Source: Chitinophagaceae bacterium (GTDB taxonomy: Bacteria > Bacteroidota > Bacteroidia > Chitinophagales > Chitinophagaceae). Taken from it: a stretch of DNA of 64,000 nt. The stretch lies in the NCBI GenBank assembly GCA_016787135.1, contig JAEUVK010000123.1, positions 1 to 64,000 of the forward strand. Reading direction: 5' to 3'. This document shows positions 10,164-19,288 of this stretch, one piece after another. Both the position numbers and the translations under genes were made by a program. The notes beneath the pieces are model-generated. The model saw only the letters and a list, made by a program, of their open reading frames with translations. It made no database searches and was not told the origin of the DNA. How positions within the stretch are numbered: the stretch's first letter is position 1; every line of letters begins with the position of its first letter.

Positions 10164-10576
10164 TCCTGCTGACGGATAGGGATAACGCCTGTAACAATGT
10201 ATTTACTGTCTCCCCGCCAGGGCAAAGTAGCCCTGTACTGAACATAAGTAACCTGCACACATTCATCCTGCAGGTTCTTCATCACGTTGGCAAGACTATC
10301 GTTGGTAACAGAAAAATAAAATTTCTCAGGGTTCATGGTTTGTCTGCAACTCAGCCACATTTCCCCTTCATCGGTTTTAAAGATATTTCCCTTGTGTGTT
10401 ATCTTGATCAGCGTTCCCTTACGTTCACCATCACTGTATTTATTGAAGAAGAACCAGTAAATGGCAAAAGCGCTGATCAATACGGCTATGATCACTATAT
10501 TCCGGAAGAACCGGCTGACTCTCTTTTTAAAACCGTCTTTCTTTTCACTAACTCCCGTTTGTTTCAGCTCATTCAT
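10157..10576 (-). CDS. hypothetical single-pass membrane protein
   Basis: A 139-residue protein with a basic, soluble N-terminus (about 1-25), one membrane helix (IIAVLISAFAIYWFFFN, about 29-45) and a C-terminal domain of about 90 residues that would lie outside the cytoplasm. I do not recognise the family. The reading frame is supported by the well-formed helix with its flanking Arg/Lys residues. It converges on the methyltransferase gene with a 7-bp overlap of the 3' ends. The opposite strand is also open over the same length but gives an implausible protein. Confidence 0.6.
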   Translation of the reverse strand: MNELKQTGVSEKKDGFKKRVSRFFRNIVIIAVLISAFAIYWFFFNKYSDGERKGTLIKITHKGNIFKTDEGEMWLSCRQTMNPEKFYFSVTNDSLANVMKNLQDECVQVTYVQYRATLPWRGDSKYIVTGVIPIRQQDQ

Positions 10577-10625
10577 GGCCAGTAATTTGTAACAAAAAAT
10601 TTATAAGGCAAACCAATTATTATTA

Positions 10626-10633
10626 TACATTTG
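10626..10633 (+). promoter_or_regulatory. -7 promoter box of the arginine operon
   Basis: TACATTTG is an exact match to TAnnTTTG and lies 27 bases before the leader ORF. The -33 element is weak: the best is TTTA at 10600-10603. Confidence 0.55.
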
Positions 10634-10640
10634 TACCCAA

Positions 10641-10659
10641 TTTACAATTTGTTTGTAAA
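10641..10659. promoter_or_regulatory. palindrome at the arginine promoter, possible operator
   Basis: TTTACAA and TTGTAAA form a 7-bp inverted repeat around a 5-base spacer, at the expected transcription start and directly before the leader ATG. It does not match the E. coli ArgR box, so assignment to an arginine repressor is not supported; it could equally be an RNA hairpin near the leader start. Confidence 0.4.
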
Positions 10660-10660
10660 C

Positions 10661-10783
10661 ATGAACAATATTCTGACACATACAAAGCAGTTTGCCTTCC
10701 ATGCACCCAATACCAGCGGTGTATATGCAGTAGGTTTTGATGTGTTCACGTTTTCCCGCCCACGACGTACTCCTGAATGCTGA
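10661..10783 (+). CDS. candidate arginine leader peptide
   Basis: A 40-codon ORF with an ATG start, 27 bases after an exact -7 box and 98 bases before the first gene of the arginine operon. Near its end it encodes Arg33-Pro34-Arg35-Arg36 (codons CGC, CCA, CGA, CGT at 10757-10768), then Thr-Pro-Glu-Cys and a TGA that overlaps the left arm of a perfect 8-bp hairpin. Three arginine codons in four at the end of a short ORF ahead of arginine genes is the layout expected of a leader peptide that senses charged tRNA-Arg by ribosome stalling. No such peptide is known to me for this phylum, and the mechanism is inferred. It could be an ordinary small protein or a chance ORF. Confidence 0.45.
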   Translation: MNNILTHTKQFAFHAPNTSGVYAVGFDVFTFSRPRRTPEC

Positions 10784-10815
10784 CAGGACGAACCCCTGAC
10801 CATGGTCCCTGTCAG
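10780..10815 (+). promoter_or_regulatory. hairpin overlapping the leader ORF stop
   Basis: CTGACAGG (10780-10787) and CCTGTCAG (10808-10815) form a perfect 8-bp stem around a 20-base loop that itself contains the palindrome GACCATGGTC (10798-10807). A ribosome paused on the arginine codons would cover or approach the left arm. No T-run follows, so a terminator hairpin is not obvious. Confidence 0.5.
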
Positions 10816-10881
10816 TGAAGTATCCCCAAAAAGGCAATCAAGGAGTGGTCTTCCAATATTCAATCAAATATTTTCGACAAA

Positions 10882-11589
10882 GTGGACAATCAACAGATCA
10901 TCGTCAGGGTAGCTACACCGGATGATAAGGTTTACTCAAAAACGATCACCGATGAAATGGAATCTTCGGCAGCTGCCCGTGGTACAGGTATTGCCAAACG
11001 TTCTCCTGAGTATATAGAACAAAAGATAGATGAAGGCAAAGCGGTAATAGCCCTTACGACCGGTGGCAAATGGGTAGGTTTTTGCTATATCGAAACCTGG
11101 AGTCATGGCGAGTATGTGGCCAATTCAGGACTGATCGTAGCGCCTGAATTCAGGAAAAGCGGGGTAGCCAAACTGATCAAGCAAAAAATATTTAATCTTT
11201 CACGGCAGAAATATCCTGAAGCTAAAATATTCGGCCTGACCACTGGTCTGGCAGTCATGAAGATCAACTCCGATCTGGGTTATGAACCGGTCACCTATTC
11301 TGAGCTTACGCAGGATGAAGCTTTCTGGGCAGGTTGTAAGAGTTGTGTAAATTATGACATACTGATGAGCAAGGACCGGAAGAATTGTATGTGTACCGCC
11401 ATGCTCTACGATCCAAAAGACCATTACGAGCCGGAAGAAACCAAAGAATTCTTCAAAGAAAATGTAAAAGGGTTTGAACGATTGCTCCGGTTCAAACAAT
11501 GGAAACTGCTGCGCCCTTTTATGAAAAAAGATAAGGACGGTAACAGCACTGGCAGGCTCAAATCACTATTCCATTTATTCCATCTCTAA
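10882..11589 (+). CDS. GNAT acyltransferase, probable N-acylglutamate synthase
   Basis: A 235-residue GNAT-fold enzyme opening the arginine operon. The acyl-CoA binding loop is GLIVAPEFRKSGVAKLI (about 84-100, RxxGxA type), and the fold is followed by a C-terminal helical extension. Position at the head of the operon, together with the absence of another argA/argJ here, suggests it makes the N-acylglutamate that starts the pathway, the acyl group being acetyl or succinyl. Unusually, it has a CKSC then CMC cysteine cluster (about 153-173) that could bind a metal. The start is GTG; 17 bp separate its end from argG. Confidence 0.7.
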   Translation: MDNQQIIVRVATPDDKVYSKTITDEMESSAAARGTGIAKRSPEYIEQKIDEGKAVIALTTGGKWVGFCYIETWSHGEYVANSGLIVAPEFRKSGVAKLIKQKIFNLSRQKYPEAKIFGLTTGLAVMKINSDLGYEPVTYSELTQDEAFWAGCKSCVNYDILMSKDRKNCMCTAMLYDPKDHYEPEETKEFFKENVKGFERLLRFKQWKLLRPFMKKDKDGNSTGRLKSLFHLFHL

Positions 11590-11606: not shown

Positions 11607-12812
11607 ATGTCAAAAAAGGTTGTTTTAGGGTTCAGCGGCGGATTAGACACTTCTTACTGTGTAAAATATCTGAGCGAAGACAAAGGCTATGAAGTACATA
11701 GCATCATTGTGAATACGGGCGGTTTTACCGAAGAAGAATTAAAGCAAATAGATGCCCATGCACATAAACTGGGTGTGAAGTCGCACAAGACGGTCAATGC
11801 CGTTAAAAGTTATTACGACAGCATCATCAAATTCCTCATATACGGAAACGTGTTAAAAAATAACACCTATCCGCTGAGTGTAAGTGCTGAAAGATTGAGC
11901 CAGGCCCTGCATATCGCCGATCATGTACAGGAACTTGACGCTGTAGCAGTGGCACATGGTAGTACCGGCGCCGGCAACGACCAGGTCAGATTTGATATGG
12001 TATTTAATATCATGATCCCCGGCGTAGAGATCATCACTCCTATCCGCGACCTGAAGCTAAGCCGTGAACAGGAAATAGAATACCTGAAGAACAAAGGCGT
12101 CCTGATGAATTTTGAAAAAGCCGCCTATTCTATTAACAAAGGACTATGGGGTACCAGTGTAGGAGGAAGAGAGACGCTTTCATCTAAAGGCATGTTACCG
12201 GAATCGGCATGGCCTACACAGGTGACCAAACAGGATACCGAAGAAGTAAAACTGCATTTTGAAAAAGGCGAGTTGAAAAAGGTGAATGATAAATTTTTCG
12301 CTCACCCGTCTGAGGCGATACAATATTTGCAAACCATTGCCGGCCCTTATGGTATCGGCCGTGATATACATGTTGGCGACACGATCATTGGCATTAAAGG
12401 ACGTGTAGGATTTGAAGCCGCCGCACCGATGGTCATCTTAAAAGCGCATCATGCGCTGGAAAAACATGTGCTGACCAAATGGCAACTGACCTGGAAAGAC
12501 CAGCTGGCCCAGTTCTATGGCAACTGGTTGCATGAAGGGCAGATACTGGACCCCGTAATGAGAGATATCGAAGCATTCCTGGAAACCACGCAGAGAAATG
12601 TAACGGGCGATGTATTTGTACAGTTATACCCTTATCGTTTCCAGGTCATAGGTATTGAATCGAAATACGACCTGATGAGCAGCAAGTTTGGCAAATACGG
12701 TGAGATGAATAATGGCTGGAGCGGCGAAGATGTAAGAGGGTTCAGCAAGATATTCGGCAACCAGACCATGATCTATCACCAGGTAAAAGAAGAAGCGGAT
12801 GGCAAACATTAA
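11607..12812 (+). CDS. argG: argininosuccinate synthase
   Basis: A 401-residue enzyme that joins citrulline and aspartate using ATP, the penultimate step of arginine synthesis. The ATP-binding loop VVLGFSGGLDTSYC is at residues 4-17, followed by the AHGSTGAGNDQVRFD segment typical of ArgG and the central SVGGRETLSSKG. The length is normal and the ATG follows the GNAT gene by 17 bp. The 3' end overlaps argC by 14 bp, indicating tight operon organisation. Confidence 0.96.
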   Translation: MSKKVVLGFSGGLDTSYCVKYLSEDKGYEVHSIIVNTGGFTEEELKQIDAHAHKLGVKSHKTVNAVKSYYDSIIKFLIYGNVLKNNTYPLSVSAERLSQALHIADHVQELDAVAVAHGSTGAGNDQVRFDMVFNIMIPGVEIITPIRDLKLSREQEIEYLKNKGVLMNFEKAAYSINKGLWGTSVGGRETLSSKGMLPESAWPTQVTKQDTEEVKLHFEKGELKKVNDKFFAHPSEAIQYLQTIAGPYGIGRDIHVGDTIIGIKGRVGFEAAAPMVILKAHHALEKHVLTKWQLTWKDQLAQFYGNWLHEGQILDPVMRDIEAFLETTQRNVTGDVFVQLYPYRFQVIGIESKYDLMSSKFGKYGEMNNGWSGEDVRGFSKIFGNQTMIYHQVKEEADGKH

Positions 12813-13779
12813 AGCAGGTATAATCGGCGGAGCAGGATATACCGGTGGCGAACTGATACGTTTACTCATTCGCCACCCGCATGTAAATGTTTCCTTTATT
12901 CATAGCCGCAGTAATGCCGGCAAACCTGTTTATAGTGTCCACCAGGATCTGTTTGGAGATACAGACCTGGAATTTTCCGGTATCCTGTCAAATGATATTG
13001 ATGTATTGTTTCTCTGTCTGGGCCACGGGGAATCGAAAAAATTCCTTTCCGAAAATAAAATCGCTGATAAAATTAGCATCATTGATCTGGCGAATGATTT
13101 CCGCTTAAGCAAACAATCTAAAATTGGCAACAGAGAATTCGTTTATGGGTTGCCTGAACTGAACAGGGACAATATCAAAAAAGCAAACAATATCGCTAAT
13201 CCGGGATGTTTTGCTACCACCATACAATTAGGATTATTACCACTGGCAAAAGCTGGTTTATTGAATGAAATTTACACAACAGGGATCACGGGCTCAACAG
13301 GTGCAGGACAAAGTTTAACGCAAACCTCTCATTTTAGCTGGAGGGCCAATAACATTCAAGCCTATAAAACACTAACACACCAGCATCTTGGTGAGATCGG
13401 CGAATCATTACTTCAATTACAATCCGGCAGTACCATTGACCTGAGCTTCGTGCCGTGGCGGGGAGATTTTACAAGAGGTATTTTCGTCAGCTCCACGATC
13501 AATTGCGACCTGAGCCTCGAAGAACTCAATAAACTATTTACTGATTTTTATAAAGGACATCCCTTTACGCATGTCAGCAAAGAACCAATATTCCTGAAGC
13601 AGGTGGTGAATACCAATAAAGCCGTGATACACCTGGAAAAAGCAGGAAGCAAGTTAGTGGTACATTCAGCTATTGACAATTTACTAAAAGGGGCCAGCGG
13701 ACAAGCTATTCAGAATATGAACATCATGTCCGGCCTTGATGAAAAAGCAGGTCTTCAGCTTAAACCATCGGGCTTCTGA
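12799..13779 (+). CDS. argC: N-acyl-gamma-glutamyl-phosphate reductase
   Basis: A 326-residue NADPH-dependent reductase that converts N-acylglutamyl phosphate to the semialdehyde. The nucleotide-binding motif GGAGYTGGE is at 10-18 and the catalytic cysteine lies in NPGCFATT (Cys137). The late HxGxxxR-type region is replaced by the expected SFVPWRGDFTRGIF segment. It starts inside the end of argG. A 93-bp gap follows in which I see no gene. Confidence 0.95.
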   Translation: MANIKAGIIGGAGYTGGELIRLLIRHPHVNVSFIHSRSNAGKPVYSVHQDLFGDTDLEFSGILSNDIDVLFLCLGHGESKKFLSENKIADKISIIDLANDFRLSKQSKIGNREFVYGLPELNRDNIKKANNIANPGCFATTIQLGLLPLAKAGLLNEIYTTGITGSTGAGQSLTQTSHFSWRANNIQAYKTLTHQHLGEIGESLLQLQSGSTIDLSFVPWRGDFTRGIFVSSTINCDLSLEELNKLFTDFYKGHPFTHVSKEPIFLKQVVNTNKAVIHLEKAGSKLVVHSAIDNLLKGASGQAIQNMNIMSGLDEKAGLQLKPSGF

Positions 13780-13872: not shown

Positions 13873-15033
13873 ATGAAGCTATTTGACGTTTATCCGATTA
13901 ATGACATCACTATTGTCAAAGCCAAAGGCTCTTATGTATGGGATGACAGGGGCGAACAGTACCTTGACCTCTACGGAGGCCATGCAGTGATCAGTATTGG
14001 CCATACGCATCCTCACTGGGTAAAACGAATTGAAGATCAGCTGGAGAAGATCGCATTTTATTCCAACTCTGTAAGAATACCACTGCAACAGCAGATGTCT
14101 GATAAATTAGGAAAGGTATCCGGTAAAAATGATTACCAGCTCTTCCTTTGCAATTCAGGGGCAGAAGCAAATGAGAATGCCCTGAAACTGGCTTCTTTTC
14201 ACAATGGAAGGAAGAAAGTCGTGGCATTCAGCAGATCATTTCATGGCAGAACCTCCCTGGCAGTTTCTGCAACGGATAATAAGAATTATATCGCCCCTGT
14301 CAACGAAACAGATAATGTCGTCTTTCTTCCTTTTAACGATGAAGAAGCGCTGGAAGGGTATTTCAGAGAAAATGGTGAGAAAATATCATCGGTTATCATA
14401 GAAGGTATCCAGGGTGTAGGCGGGATCAATGTTGCAGATGATTCTTTTTTAAGAAAGATACGCTCCCTTTGTGATGAGTATGGCGCTTTATACATAGCTG
14501 ACAGTGTACAATGCGGTTATGGCAGAAGTGGCAAATTCTTCAGCCATGATTTTGCCGGGGTGAATGCTGACATCTATACAATGGCCAAAGGTATGGGAAA
14601 TGGTTTCCCGGTTGCAGGTATTATTATTGCCCCGCATATAAAGCCAAAACATTTTGCCCTTGGCACTACATTTGGCGGCAATCACCTGGCTTGTTCGGCT
14701 GCGCTGGCTGTACTCGAAATTATTGAAGAAGAAAAACTGATGGGCAATGCCGTCATGGTGGGCAAATACCTGAAAGATCAGTTGGAAGACATCCCGGAAT
14801 TAAAGAATGTACGCGGCAGGGGCCTGATGATCGGCTTTGATGTACCCGAAGAATTGAAAGACCTGAAAAAGAATTTGCTTTGGAACCAGAAAATTTTTAC
14901 AGGGGAAGCAAAGCCAAATGTGATACGTTTATTGCCCTCACTTGCGCTAAAGAAAAGGGATGCAGAACAGTTTATAGAATCCCTGAAGGAAGAAATTGAA
15001 AAAATACTGACTGGAGAAAAAGTCCATGGCTAA
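13873..15033 (+). CDS. argD: N-acylornithine aminotransferase
   Basis: A 386-residue class-III pyridoxal-phosphate aminotransferase that turns the N-acylglutamate semialdehyde into N-acylornithine. It shows the family pattern: LDLYGGHAVISIGHTHP near the start, SGAEANENALKLA for phosphate contact, SVQCGYGRSGKF, and the PLP lysine at about residue 239 in AKGMGNGFPVAG. GTTFGGNHLAC completes the site. As the operon appears to use a succinyl- or acetyl-blocked pathway, the acyl group it handles should match argF'. Confidence 0.93.
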   Translation: MKLFDVYPINDITIVKAKGSYVWDDRGEQYLDLYGGHAVISIGHTHPHWVKRIEDQLEKIAFYSNSVRIPLQQQMSDKLGKVSGKNDYQLFLCNSGAEANENALKLASFHNGRKKVVAFSRSFHGRTSLAVSATDNKNYIAPVNETDNVVFLPFNDEEALEGYFRENGEKISSVIIEGIQGVGGINVADDSFLRKIRSLCDEYGALYIADSVQCGYGRSGKFFSHDFAGVNADIYTMAKGMGNGFPVAGIIIAPHIKPKHFALGTTFGGNHLACSAALAVLEIIEEEKLMGNAVMVGKYLKDQLEDIPELKNVRGRGLMIGFDVPEELKDLKKNLLWNQKIFTGEAKPNVIRLLPSLALKKRDAEQFIESLKEEIEKILTGEKVHG

Positions 15034-15139
15034 AGCTGTGTAGATAAAAATTCATTGGACTTTAATCCCGAAAGCATATAAAAAGATAAAAGATTAATAA
15101 TGGCGCTTGTTTCCTGATAAACTAAAACAATCTGTAAAG

Positions 15140-16105
15140 TTGAAACAGTTCATTTCCGTTGATGATGTAACCAATATTGATGCCCTGGTTCAAAAAGCAC
15201 TTACGTACAAGGCTGACCGTTTTAAGGACAGGACCTTGGGGGCCAACAAACGTATCGGTTGCCTGTTCCTGAACCCCAGTATGCGTACCCGGTTAAGCAC
15301 ACAGGTGGCTGCGCAAAATCTTGGTATGGAATGTATCATTTTTAATGTGGGCAGCGAAGGCTGGGCTTTAGAGTTTGAAGAAGAGGCGATCATGAGCGGA
15401 AATACGGTAGAACATGTAAAAGATGCAGCCCCGATCCTGGGAAAATATTTTGATATTCTCGCTATCCGGACTTTCCCTTCATTAAAGAACAAAGAAGATG
15501 ATTACAGTGAATTGTACATAAAACAATTCATCAAATATGCGGGTATACCGGTGGTAAGCCTGGAAAGTGCAACCCTTCATCCGCTGCAGTCCCTTACTGA
15601 CATCATCACCATAACCGAAAACTATAAACCGCAAACAACAGGCCGCAAACCCAAAATCGTTTTGACCTGGGCCCCGCATATCAAACCCCTTCCCCAATGT
15701 GTGGCGAATAGTTTTGCACAATGGATCAATGCATGGGGCAAAGCTGATTTTGTGATCACCCACCCGGAGGATTATGAATTAAGTGAACAATTCACCAAAG
15801 GCGCCATCGTCACACTTGACCAGGACGAAGCATTGAAAGATGCAGATTTTGTATATGTGAAGAACTGGAGTACATATAATGATTACGGCAGGGTTTATTG
15901 CAATGATCCTGAATGGATGCTCACCAATGAAAAGCTGAAACTGACCAATAATGCCAAAGTGATGCACTGCCTGCCGGTAAGAAGAAATGTAGAATTAAGT
16001 GATGAAATACTGGACGGCCCCAACAGCCTTGTGACACAGGAAGCAGCTAATCGGGTTTGGGCAGCACAGGCTGTTTTATCGGAAATACTCAAGTCCGCAT
16101 TATAA
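15140..16105 (+). CDS. argF': N-acylornithine carbamoyltransferase, predicted N-succinylornithine type
   Basis: A 321-residue transcarbamylase of the AOTCase/SOTCase group. The carbamoyl-phosphate motif is SMRTRLS, and HCLPVRRN and HPLQSLTD are also present. The residue that decides substrate choice (Glu92 in the Xanthomonas N-acetylornithine enzyme, Pro90 in the Bacteroides fragilis N-succinylornithine enzyme) is Val90 here, in SGNTVEH. From published mutants (E92V among them) this predicts a succinyl substrate. I chose the TTG at 15140 because it gives the MKQFISVDDV opening seen in the family and makes the valine exactly residue 90; a TTG at 15107 adds 11 residues. An ATG at 15100 would read into the same protein only after a one-base shift. 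The stop abuts the argB start. Confidence 0.9.
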   Translation: MKQFISVDDVTNIDALVQKALTYKADRFKDRTLGANKRIGCLFLNPSMRTRLSTQVAAQNLGMECIIFNVGSEGWALEFEEEAIMSGNTVEHVKDAAPILGKYFDILAIRTFPSLKNKEDDYSELYIKQFIKYAGIPVVSLESATLHPLQSLTDIITITENYKPQTTGRKPKIVLTWAPHIKPLPQCVANSFAQWINAWGKADFVITHPEDYELSEQFTKGAIVTLDQDEALKDADFVYVKNWSTYNDYGRVYCNDPEWMLTNEKLKLTNNAKVMHCLPVRRNVELSDEILDGPNSLVTQEAANRVWAAQAVLSEILKSAL

Positions 16106-16891
16106 ATGGAGAAACTTTTTGTCATAAAGATCGGCGGTAATATCATTGATGATGAAACAAAGCTTTCGTCATTTCTCGCCAGCTTTTCCAATATTAACGG
16201 CAAAAAGATCCTGGTACATGGCGGAGGCAAACTGGCTACAAGGCTGGCTGAAAAATTAGGTGTAGAACAGCAATTGGTAGAAGGCAGGAGGATAACAGAT
16301 GCGGAAACATTAAAGATCGTTACGATGGTATATGCCGGATATATCAATAAGAATATCGTGGCTACTTTACAAGCGCATCATTGCAATGCCATCGGGCTTT
16401 GCGGCGCAGACGGTGATGTGATATTGGCGCATAAAAGGCAACATCCTGTATTGGATTATGGCTTTGTAGGTGATGTGGATGCCATCAATACTGTTTTACT
16501 CAAAAACCTGCTGAACCAGAATATAGCGGTAGTATTTGCACCGATCACACACGACCAGCAGGGGCAGTTGTTAAATACCAATGCAGACACCATAGCACAG
16601 GAAGTAGCCAAAGGGCTGAGCCGTGATTACGAAGTAAGCCTTATTTATTCTTTTGAAAAAAACGGCGTGTTACTGGATGCCAATGATGACAATACGGTAA
16701 TTGGCAAGATCAACCTGTCCTATTATCAGCAACTGAAAGCGAAACAAAAAATATTTGCCGGTATGATCCCAAAACTGGACAATGCCTTTGCGGCATTGAA
16801 CAATGGTGTAAAAAAAGTGATCATCGGCAAGGCAGAGAACCTGGAACAGCTTGTACAGGGGAGTTCCGGAACAACCATAGAAAATGAATAG
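16106..16891 (+). CDS. argB: N-acetylglutamate kinase family (N-acylglutamate kinase)
   Basis: A 261-residue amino-acid kinase that phosphorylates N-acylglutamate. It begins FVIKIGGNIIDD, carries the substrate loop LVHGGGKLATRLAEKLG (about 33-49), and has GLCGADGD and the late NADTIAQEVAKGL region. The ATG directly follows the argF' stop, and its end overlaps argE by 8 bp. Feedback inhibition by arginine cannot be judged, since the N-terminal helix linked to sensitivity in other bacteria is short here. Confidence 0.93.
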   Translation: MEKLFVIKIGGNIIDDETKLSSFLASFSNINGKKILVHGGGKLATRLAEKLGVEQQLVEGRRITDAETLKIVTMVYAGYINKNIVATLQAHHCNAIGLCGADGDVILAHKRQHPVLDYGFVGDVDAINTVLLKNLLNQNIAVVFAPITHDQQGQLLNTNADTIAQEVAKGLSRDYEVSLIYSFEKNGVLLDANDDNTVIGKINLSYYQQLKAKQKIFAGMIPKLDNAFAALNNGVKKVIIGKAENLEQLVQGSSGTTIENE

Positions 16892-17957
16892 TGAAAAAAT
16901 ACATCAACTGCATGAGGATGCTGTCGGCCTGCTGAAAGAGCTGATCGCTACACCTTCATTCAGCAAAGAAGAAGATGAAACGGCGGGTATCCTTTGCCGG
17001 TTTATCGGTACAAGGAACATTGCACACGCAAGAGTAGGCAATAATGTATATGCACTGAATAAATACTATGATACTAACAAACCAAGTATCCTATTAAACT
17101 CTCATCACGATACGGTAAAGCCTAACAAAGGTTACACGTTCGACCCCTTTAGTCCATTTGAAAAAGACGGGAAGATATTCGGGCTGGGAAGCAATGATGC
17201 AGGCGGCTGCCTGGTGTCATTACTGGCTGTCTTCCTTTATTTCTATGAAAGACAGAATGTGAAGTATAATGTGATCTTTGCTGCCAGCGCCGAAGAAGAG
17301 ATCAGCGGCGTGAATGGTATTGAGCTGGTATTACCTTATCTTGGCAAAATTGATTGCGGTATTGTAGGCGAACCTACCAAACTGGAAATGGCCGTTGCAG
17401 AAAGAGGGCTGATGGTGATCGATTGTACTGCCGAAGGCCGTGCAGGTCATGCAGCCAGGAATGAAGGGGAGAATGCCTTATATAAAGCCGTAGATGACAT
17501 CAGCTGGATACGTGGATATAAATTTGAAAAAGTAAGCCCCCTTCTTGGTGAATCCAGGTTGACAGTAACTATCATTGGTACAGAAAACCAGCAGCATAAC
17601 GTTGTTCCTTCGCAATGTAAGTTTGTGATCGATGTAAGGGTAAATGAACTCTATACCTTTGAAGAGATACTGGATGCCCTGCAAAAGAATCTTAAAAGTA
17701 AGTTCAAGCCCCGCACCACCCGGATGAAATCAACTTCCATAGCGATGGATCATCCATTGGTAAAAGCGGGCATCGCATTGGGCAGAGGATATTATGGTTC
17801 GCCTACCACTTCCGATAAAGCCCTGATGCCATTTCCCACATTGAAAATGGGGCCGGGAGATAGTGCCCGCAGTCACACGGCTGATGAATACATTTACATT
17901 GATGAAATAAAAGAAGGGATCGAAACGTATATAAAACTGGTAAATCAGTTATTATGA
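16884..17957 (+). CDS. argE: M20 family N-acylornithine/N-acylcitrulline deacylase
   Basis: A 357-residue zinc hydrolase of peptidase family M20. Likely metal and catalytic residues are the histidines of LLNSHHDTVKP (74-75), Asp105 in GSNDAGG and the glutamates of SAEEEISG (137-139). The dimerisation domain contains GRAGHAARNEGENA. Because the operon encodes an N-acylornithine transcarbamylase, the physiological substrate should be N-acyl-citrulline, with removal of the acyl group before argininosuccinate synthase. It overlaps argB upstream and shares ATGA with argH downstream. Confidence 0.88.
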   Translation: MNSEKIHQLHEDAVGLLKELIATPSFSKEEDETAGILCRFIGTRNIAHARVGNNVYALNKYYDTNKPSILLNSHHDTVKPNKGYTFDPFSPFEKDGKIFGLGSNDAGGCLVSLLAVFLYFYERQNVKYNVIFAASAEEEISGVNGIELVLPYLGKIDCGIVGEPTKLEMAVAERGLMVIDCTAEGRAGHAARNEGENALYKAVDDISWIRGYKFEKVSPLLGESRLTVTIIGTENQQHNVVPSQCKFVIDVRVNELYTFEEILDALQKNLKSKFKPRTTRMKSTSIAMDHPLVKAGIALGRGYYGSPTTSDKALMPFPTLKMGPGDSARSHTADEYIYIDEIKEGIETYIKLVNQLL

Positions 17958-19288
17958 AATTGTGGCAAAAAGATAAGGTATCATTAAAAGAAGTGGAAGC
18001 CTTCACTGTCGGTAAAGACAGGGAAATGGATATGTACCTGGCCGCTTTTGATGTACTCGGTTCCCTGGCCCATATCCAGATGCTGCAATCAATAGGATTG
18101 ATCACAAAGAATGAATTACCCCGCTTACAGGCAGAACTGAAGGGTATATATGTACAGATAGAGGAAGGTAAGTTCATCCTGCAGGATGATGTGGAAGATA
18201 TTCATTCACAAATCGAATTGTTGCTGACCCAAAAGCTGGGGGATATCGGCAAAAAGATCCACTCTGCCCGCAGCCGCAACGACCAGGTGCTGGTAGATAT
18301 AAAACTTTTTTTAAGAAATGAAATAGAAGAACTGGTAAAGACAATCCAGCCATTTTTCGAACTGCTGCAATCGCAAAGTGAGAAATACCAGGAGCATCTG
18401 TTGCCCGGATATACACATTTGCAATTAGCCATGCCATCTTCATTTGGTCTATGGTTTGGCGCTTATGCAGAAAGTCTAGTAGATGATATCATTACATTAA
18501 GAGCAGCTTATGACGTTGTTAATAAAAACCCGTTAGGCTCTGCTGCCGGTTATGGTTCTTCTTTCCCGATCAACCGGGCCCTGACAACAAAGTTGCTTGG
18601 TTTTGATGATCTGAACTATAATGTAGTGTATGCCCAGATGGGAAGGGGTAAAGCAGAACGGATCACCGCAATGGCGTTGGCGAATATTGCTGATACACTA
18701 AGCAAACTTTCGATGGATGCCTGCCTTTTCCTAAACCAGAATTTTTCCTTTATCAGTTTTCCGGCAGAACTGACGACCGGCAGCAGCATCATGCCGCATA
18801 AAAAGAACCCCGATGTATTTGAACTGATCCGTTCTCACTGTAACCGCATCAAAGCATTGCCAAATGAGATCATGATGATGACCACCAATCTTCCCTCGGG
18901 CTATCATCGCGACCTGCAATTACTGAAAGAACATTTGTTCCCCTCATTCAGGGTACTAAAAGATTGCATTGGAATGGCTGAACTGATGTTATCGAATGTT
19001 GAGATCAAAAAAAATATACTGGCTGATGAAAAATACAGGTACCTGTTCAGCGTAGAAGAAGTAAATAAGCTGGTATTACAGGGTATGCCTTTCCGGGATG
19101 CCTATAAAAAAGTGGGGATGGATATTGAAGCAGGAAAATTTTCTTATGATACAGATATTCATCATACACATGAGGGCAGTATCGGGAATCTTTGCAATGA
19201 TGAGATAAAACAACAAATGCAGAAAGTACTCGACAGCTTTTCTTTTAAATCAGTGGAAAAAGCACTGACAGGTTTACTTGCCCAGTAA
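17954..19288 (+). CDS. argH: argininosuccinate lyase
   Basis: A 444-residue member of the fumarase/aspartase superfamily that splits argininosuccinate to arginine and fumarate. It has DVEDIHSQIE, HSARSRNDQV, PGYTHLQLAMP with the catalytic histidine, and the superfamily signature GSSIMPHKKNPD near 276-287. It is the last gene of the operon; its 3' end overlaps the converging DinB-like gene by 15 bp and I see no terminator between them. Confidence 0.96.
   Translation: MKLWQKDKVSLKEVEAFTVGKDREMDMYLAAFDVLGSLAHIQMLQSIGLITKNELPRLQAELKGIYVQIEEGKFILQDDVEDIHSQIELLLTQKLGDIGKKIHSARSRNDQVLVDIKLFLRNEIEELVKTIQPFFELLQSQSEKYQEHLLPGYTHLQLAMPSSFGLWFGAYAESLVDDIITLRAAYDVVNKNPLGSAAGYGSSFPINRALTTKLLGFDDLNYNVVYAQMGRGKAERITAMALANIADTLSKLSMDACLFLNQNFSFISFPAELTTGSSIMPHKKNPDVFELIRSHCNRIKALPNEIMMMTTNLPSGYHRDLQLLKEHLFPSFRVLKDCIGMAELMLSNVEIKKNILADEKYRYLFSVEEVNKLVLQGMPFRDAYKKVGMDIEAGKFSYDTDIHHTHEGSIGNLCNDEIKQQMQKVLDSFSFKSVEKALTGLLAQ

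Follow-up and report, generated by a model that had tools for sequence, protein, structure and literature searches.

A conserved candidate arginine-sensing leader ORF upstream of the arg operon in Chitinophagaceae

Introduction

How might a bacterium without a recognizable ArgR repressor adjust its arginine biosynthetic operon to the supply of arginine? To our knowledge, bacterial arginine biosynthesis has been described as being under the control of ArgR-type proteins or, in Firmicutes, of T-boxes, and we know of few leader-peptide systems in the Bacteroidota. The question is raised by an operon with the gene order GNAT-argGCDF'BEH in a Chitinophagaceae bacterium (GenBank assembly GCA_016787135.1), which lies in the first 64,000 nucleotides of contig JAEUVK010000123.1. 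This whole stretch is referred to below as the window. An earlier reading of the window, made from its letters alone, proposed that a short ORF in front of the operon encodes a leader peptide by which charged tRNA-Arg is sensed.

We considered this proposal in the light of the corresponding loci of other Bacteroidia. The ORF at 10661-10783 is probably a translated, arginine-sensing leader peptide that controls the arg operon by ribosome-mediated attenuation. The grounds for this assignment are comparative, and its parts carry different degrees of confidence.

Results

Organization of the leader and the operon

The elements described by the sequence-only reading are all in place (Table 1). A 40-codon ORF preceded by an exact -7 box ends with Arg-Pro-Arg-Arg, and 98 nt separate it from the GTG start (10882) of the first operon gene. 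Its stop codon overlaps a perfect 8-bp hairpin, here termed H1, whose loop contains the palindrome GACCATGGTC. The first operon gene, a GNAT acetyltransferase, is present in 156 of 197 Chitinophagaceae genomes. Readthrough of the stop codon or frameshifting into this gene was considered and rejected, as the ORF and the gene are in different frames in the window and are separated by a gap of varying length among relatives.

Table 1. Positions of the leader elements and operon genes in the window.
Feature	Position	Strand	Remark
-7 promoter element TACATTTG, Bacteroidota type TAnnTTTG, for the leader transcript	10626-10633	+	
Leader ORF, 40 codons, MNNILTHTKQFAFHAPNTSGVYAVGFDVFTFSRPRRTPEC followed by stop	10661-10783	+	sequence, homologues, pN/pS 0.23
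Start codon ATG	10661-10663	+	
Putative control codons CGC-CCA-CGA-CGT (Arg-Pro-Arg-Arg)	10757-10768	+	Arg CGC 10757, Pro CCA 10760, Arg CGA 10763 (conserved rare codon), Arg CGT 10766
Stop codon TGA	10781-10783	+	
Hairpin H1, overlapping the stop codon	10780-10815	+	outer 8 bp paired in 54/54 rows, covariation
H1 outer arms	10780-10787 with 10808-10815	+	CTGACAGG with CCTGTCAG
H1 inner stem	10792-10794 with 10804-10806	+	ACC with GGT
H1 loop strand (T)GACCA	10797-10802	+	complementary to H2 loop
Downstream element H2, GGAGTGGTCTTCC	10842-10854	+	TGGTC 10846-10850 complements H1 loop
GNAT acetyltransferase, first gene of operon	10882-11589	+	GTG start
argG, argininosuccinate synthase	11607-12812	+	TIGR00032 above cut-off
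argC	12799-13779	+	TIGR01850 above cut-off
argD-type acetyl/succinylornithine aminotransferase	13873-15033	+	
argF', N-acyl-ornithine carbamoyltransferase	15107-16105	+	
argB, acetylglutamate kinase	16106-16891	+	
ArgE/DapE-family deacylase	16884-17957	+	
argH, argininosuccinate lyase	17954-19288	+	

The -7 element recurs among relatives: a TAnnTTTG box stands 60-260 nt upstream of the stop of the upstream ORF (uORF) at 64 of 112 loci, compared with 9% in shuffled sequences. Upstream of this box the window's clade has a conserved block, AACAAAAAATTT (10590-10605 in the window, and at the same place in loci L002-L016); it is perhaps an upstream promoter element or a protein site. The leader peptide is encoded in a single copy in the genome. 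Searches of Pfam, NCBIfam and PADLOC returned no family for it (in Pfam none at E 1, DUF2618 included), and no Rfam family matches positions 10500-10950. A sub-threshold Rfam snoRNA match on the minus strand (10558-10666; 22.6 bits against a cut-off of 40) is very probably due to chance.

Conservation of the arginine tail and its codons

A peptide search over the 197 Chitinophagaceae genomes, many of them metagenome bins, recovered close homologues, and the upstream DNA was examined at 113 GNAT loci. All 27 homologues inspected in detail stand directly before GNAT-argG. A short ORF that ends 70-145 nt before the GNAT gene and carries at least two arginines in its last eight codons is present at 110 of the 113 loci, which are not independent, the tail codons being inherited along with the structure. 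Such a tail occurs in 6.3% of dinucleotide shuffles and at 1 of 113 loci on the reverse strand. At least three arginines were found at 88 of 113 loci, against 0.7% of shuffles. Upstream of 44 other genes of the window, four ORFs reach two arginines and none reaches three. In a second, partly overlapping set of loci with organism names, which includes Terrimonas, Niabella, Lacibacter, Flavihumibacter, Sediminibacterium and Niastella, an Arg-tailed uORF precedes the operon in 79 of 80 cases.

The tails fall into the types RPRRTPEC, PRPRRGC/F, RRPRI and VRR, and the N-terminal part of the peptide is recognizable within clades only. Two loci, L022 (1501-1629) and L024 (1501-1614), have a well conserved body but only one arginine in the last eight codons (tails PRPQRCCPLF and YLVRPAI, respectively). 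Such leaders are a point against the model, and as natural variants they should be of use.

The choice among arginine codons is strongly biased. CGA, the rarest arginine codon of the neighbouring genes (6 of 165 arginine codons, or 4%, in 14 genes of the window), makes up 171 of the 328 arginine codons (52%) in the last eight positions of the tails, against 65 of 753 (9%) in the GNAT genes of the relatives (odds ratio 11.5). Of 121 Arg-Arg pairs, 102 begin with CGA. In the his leader of Salmonella, Arg pairs containing CGA held ribosomes more than CGU or CGC did and were among the strongest stallers (PMC4046918). Under tRNA sensing, one would expect a slow codon for a single amino acid to be selected. 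The preference could alternatively reflect an RNA-level constraint on CGACG, but no partner sequence for this string was seen.

The sequence-only reading had looked to relatives for a conserved short ORF ending in arginine codons upstream of GNAT-argG, and had named absence of the ORF or loss of these codons as the case against it. The ORF, its position and its tail persist, and together with the preference for the rare CGA they support the proposed sensing of charged tRNA-Arg as the probable function. That the ORF is an arginine-sensing leader is, on this comparison, very likely.

Conserved pairing at and beyond the stop codon

Leaders of the window's clade, and many of the PRPRRG type, have H1 with the consensus C-UGAYAGG...CCURUCAG-UGAA, which includes the stop codon. 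Among 54 aligned sequences its outer stem shows C-G/U-A exchange and an inner pair alternates between A-U and G-C. A second element, H2 (consensus GGAYUGGUNAUCC), has a loop that is complementary to that of H1, NACCA. H2 lies 27 nt from the operon start in the window and about 21-28 nt from it in most relatives, and the linker before it varies. Over H1, its inner stem and the pairing of loop with H2, 48 cells of the alignment are altered on both sides, compared with 16 in shuffles; because the sequences were chosen by a motif that included the UGGU core, with the linker omitted, independent evidence for the loop-H2 pairing comes from the flanking pairs alone (columns 18-19 with 52-53), one of which, 19-52, occurs as five standard types (C-G, A-U, U-A, G-C and G-U). 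At loci without a canonical H2 motif, complementarity of the loop to downstream sequence exceeds that of swapped loops (z 4.7; n=23, a few of them window-type loci missed by the motif). At the canonical loci a permutation test of the loop pairing gives only p 0.014, their pairing core being almost without variation.

The fold stability of the window leader alone is ordinary (z -0.9), so the evidence for these structures is comparative and not energetic. Elsewhere in the genome the H1 motif has one perfect and two one-mismatch matches, no more than the control. Masking the 5' arm of H1 revealed no conserved alternative fold, a point against the attenuation model, and alignment gave no consensus fold for the VRR and RRPR clades, whose sequences are too divergent. 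A general competing pairing of the uORF tail with the 5' flank of H2 was also considered; complementarity scored only slightly higher than in swapped pairs (10.9 against 10.2, p 0.002), and it was set aside as a feature of some lineages that is not conserved. Examples are ACUCCU/AGGAGU in the window (10769-10774 with 10841-10846) and an 8-bp pairing of GUCCUGAA with UUCAGGAC in L002. A C-rich patch (UCCCC or UCUCCGG) recurs 5-10 nt after H1 (10823-10830 in the window, and in relatives) and is possibly a Rho or protein site.

Comparison of the loci thus shows the putative leader ORF, its place, its arginine tail with the rare CGA, and the predicted H1 and H1 loop-H2 pairing. These correspond to what is expected of an attenuator: a conserved coding leader ORF, conserved codons for the product near its end, and conserved structure at the stop codon and downstream, positioned to respond to a ribosome that waits at those codons.

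A possible switch and its output

Beyond the codon in its A site, a ribosome covers about 11-12 nt of downstream RNA. Of the 52 loci in the H1 group, 51 have a last CGA that starts 11 or 17 nt upstream of H1, a spacing at which H1 would be just free and would be opened by a further step of the ribosome. When arginine is short, the ribosome would wait at CGA 10763 or CGT 10766 with its front edge at about the first base of H1; H1 would then form, its loop would pair with H2, and the operon would be expressed. When arginine is plentiful, the ribosome would proceed to the UGA inside the 5' arm of H1 and keep H1 open, and H2, a short hairpin with a U-run behind it in many relatives, could then serve as a weak attenuator. 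As a biosynthetic operon is expected to be on at low arginine, we take H1 with the loop-H2 pairing as the on state. A switch of this kind between the H1 loop and H2 is, in our judgement, somewhat favoured as the output of the leader.

The switch could act on transcription or on translation. Positions 10560-10900 of the window contain no terminator-like site and no U-run after H1, and H1 was for this reason rejected as an intrinsic terminator; H2 is weak in the window and has no U-run behind it. The remark of the sequence-only reading that a transcription-terminating hairpin is unsupported therefore stands for H1 and for the window, but it does not extend to the relatives. A U-run directly follows H2 at 21 of 75 window-type loci, against 5 expected, an excess compatible with transcription attenuation. 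In two clades that lack H1, terminator-like hairpins occur at 11 of 22 and 13 of 34 loci, against about 2.5 each in shuffles. In Sediminibacterium ginsengisoli (L324) and at L168 the H1 loop complements the 3' arm of a short hairpin with a U-rich run behind it, and here pairing of the loop would act as an anti-terminator. For the window itself, intrinsic termination is nevertheless a doubtful form of output. Leaders with RRPRI tails and without H1 (L080, L113, L116, L158, L162, L177 and others) carry a CGTGTAT(C) element tens of nucleotides before the GNAT start, and ACACG-ATA-CGTGT hairpins occupy a similar place in L131, L171 and L175.

Alternatively, translation of the leader could open or close the start region of the first gene, or shield the transcript from Rho. 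This possibility concerns the output step only and is compatible with arginine sensing by the leader ribosome. It would suit the lack of a U-run in the window and the near-fixed distance of H2 from the start codon (21-28 nt), beside the expected 30S site, while the linker varies; the speF leader of Salmonella likewise employs Rho, start-site masking and RNA decay (PMC6386406). The U-runs behind H2 in many relatives and the terminator-like hairpins enriched in the two clades without H1 point the other way, and we regard such an output as a tentative option.

The peptide body and other functions of the ORF

In the window's clade the third codon positions of the ORF vary and the residues are kept (pN/pS 0.23 over 58 unique 27-codon cores), which indicates constraint at the protein level. 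The conserved body, HTKQFAFHAPxTSGVYAVGFDVFTF, is more conserved than the arginine tail, in which a proline is invariant and mostly part of an Arg-Pro motif. Plain tRNA sensing does not require such conservation of the body, which counts against the attenuation model and makes a contribution of the nascent chain possible. The body might, in the full form of this idea, stall the ribosome from within the exit tunnel in response to free arginine or a related metabolite, in the manner of the fungal arginine attenuator peptide or of bacterial SpeFL, with the arginine tail as part of the arrest motif. Both the constrained body and the invariant proline would fit, but the body is unrecognizable in other clades that have the same arginine tail and H1 (for example, LQPMFATPIHMEAFFIQSLPRPRRGC), and it is the arginine codons and the rare CGA that persist across clades, a codon choice that points to decoding by tRNA. 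Nascent-chain arrest as the principal mechanism is accordingly improbable.

Protein-level conservation in one clade would also be expected of a small protein with a function of its own that is carried in the arg operon. This is a very remote prospect, given that the C-terminal arginine codons, CGA, stop position and spacing are retained from clade to clade although the body becomes unrecognizable, and that the single-copy ORF matched no family in Pfam, NCBIfam or PADLOC. Any sequence contains many short ORFs, but conservation at 110 of 113 loci against 6% by chance, and separation from the first gene by a variable gap, lead us to discount almost entirely a chance ORF or a remnant of that gene.

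Distribution beyond the family and relation to ArgR

We return to arginine sensing by the leader, for which the distribution outside Chitinophagaceae is informative. A profile search with the leader peptide outside this family gave matches at chance level apart from family members, and more distant leaders were found by inspecting the DNA upstream of the operon. In a class-wide sample of Bacteroidia from outside the family, scored with a wider gap between ORF and GNAT gene (60-220 nt), an Arg-tailed uORF precedes 39 of 60 loci (null 17%). Leaders with such tails, including VPFFPRR, RPVFYIRR and SPLRRNRFTFRV, each directly followed by the stop codon, occur in many other families of Bacteroidia.

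ArgR is absent from 196 of the 197 Chitinophagaceae genomes, the remaining one having a marginal match, and the genome of the window (91.6% complete) has no match over the cut-off. None of the five class-sample genomes with both the operon and a good argR has an Arg-tailed uORF, against 39 of the 55 others (Fisher p 0.004, with the five drawn from only two families, four genomes from one and one from another). In these five genomes (G228, G268, G332, G363 and G301, with loci L244, L242, L245, L246 and L248) argR adjoins GNAT-argG on its upstream side. From their occurrence, the repressor and the putative leader look like alternatives. A broader version, in which a leader that replaces ArgR throughout Bacteroidia combines decoding of the rare CGA, a conserved nascent peptide and a loop-capture switch (a ribosome-gated kissing or pseudoknot interaction), is as a whole rather unlikely.

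Discussion

If the proposed function is correct, a codon-sensing leader would serve arginine biosynthesis across large parts of Bacteroidia without ArgR, and would answer how these bacteria may control the arg operon at all. The leaders, well over a hundred in number, form a natural set for comparison, with sensing codons that vary separately from the RNA parts of the output, and they offer a ready reporter of arginine supply. The model also predicts many small genes undescribed in the protein-family libraries that were searched. Our search of the literature on arginine or Bacteroidetes amino-acid leader peptides, made in a library of mostly non-subscription journals, found no description of this system.

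ArgR is the ordinary means of control of arg genes in many bacteria; among the sampled Bacteroidia it is confined to a minority, mostly beside the operon. In the classical trp, his, ilv, leu and thr attenuators of Proteobacteria, a biosynthetic operon is preceded by a leader ORF with many codons for the amino acid that the operon produces. The present leader differs from these in responding, as proposed, to arginine, in having few control codons at its very end, in its conserved body, in the pairing of a loop with a hairpin in place of the 1:2/2:3/3:4 set, and in that the window has no strong terminator with a U-run. A uORF in front of a gene for arginine biosynthesis also encodes the fungal arginine attenuator peptide (AAP), whose sequence is likewise conserved. 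On eukaryotic ribosomes the AAP responds to free arginine by way of the nascent chain. No sequence relation between the two peptides was seen, and in the present leader rare arginine codons are selected. Bacteroid-trp RNA is an attenuator-like element upstream of trp genes. It belongs to a different operon and is unmatched in 10500-10950; it is listed (RF01692) as a cis-regulatory RNA motif of Bacteroidetes (PMC2864571).

The closest system in mechanism is ORF34 of the speF leader of Salmonella and E. coli (SpeFL, DUF2618), which shares the short ORF, the consecutive rare arginine codons and a hairpin after the stop codon. Experiments in Salmonella showed that this hairpin, located just after the stop of orf34, forms only when the ribosome pauses at two arginine codons and does not form when the ribosome reaches the stop (PMC6386406). 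The peptides are unrelated, and speF ORF34 controls ornithine decarboxylase, whereas the present leader precedes arginine biosynthesis. The arginine codons of ORF34 are at positions 12-13 in a 5' leader of about 500 nt, and its output involves Rho, start-site masking and RNase G (PMC6386406); those of the Chitinophagaceae leader stand at the end of the ORF, where a waiting ribosome would leave H1 just free to form.
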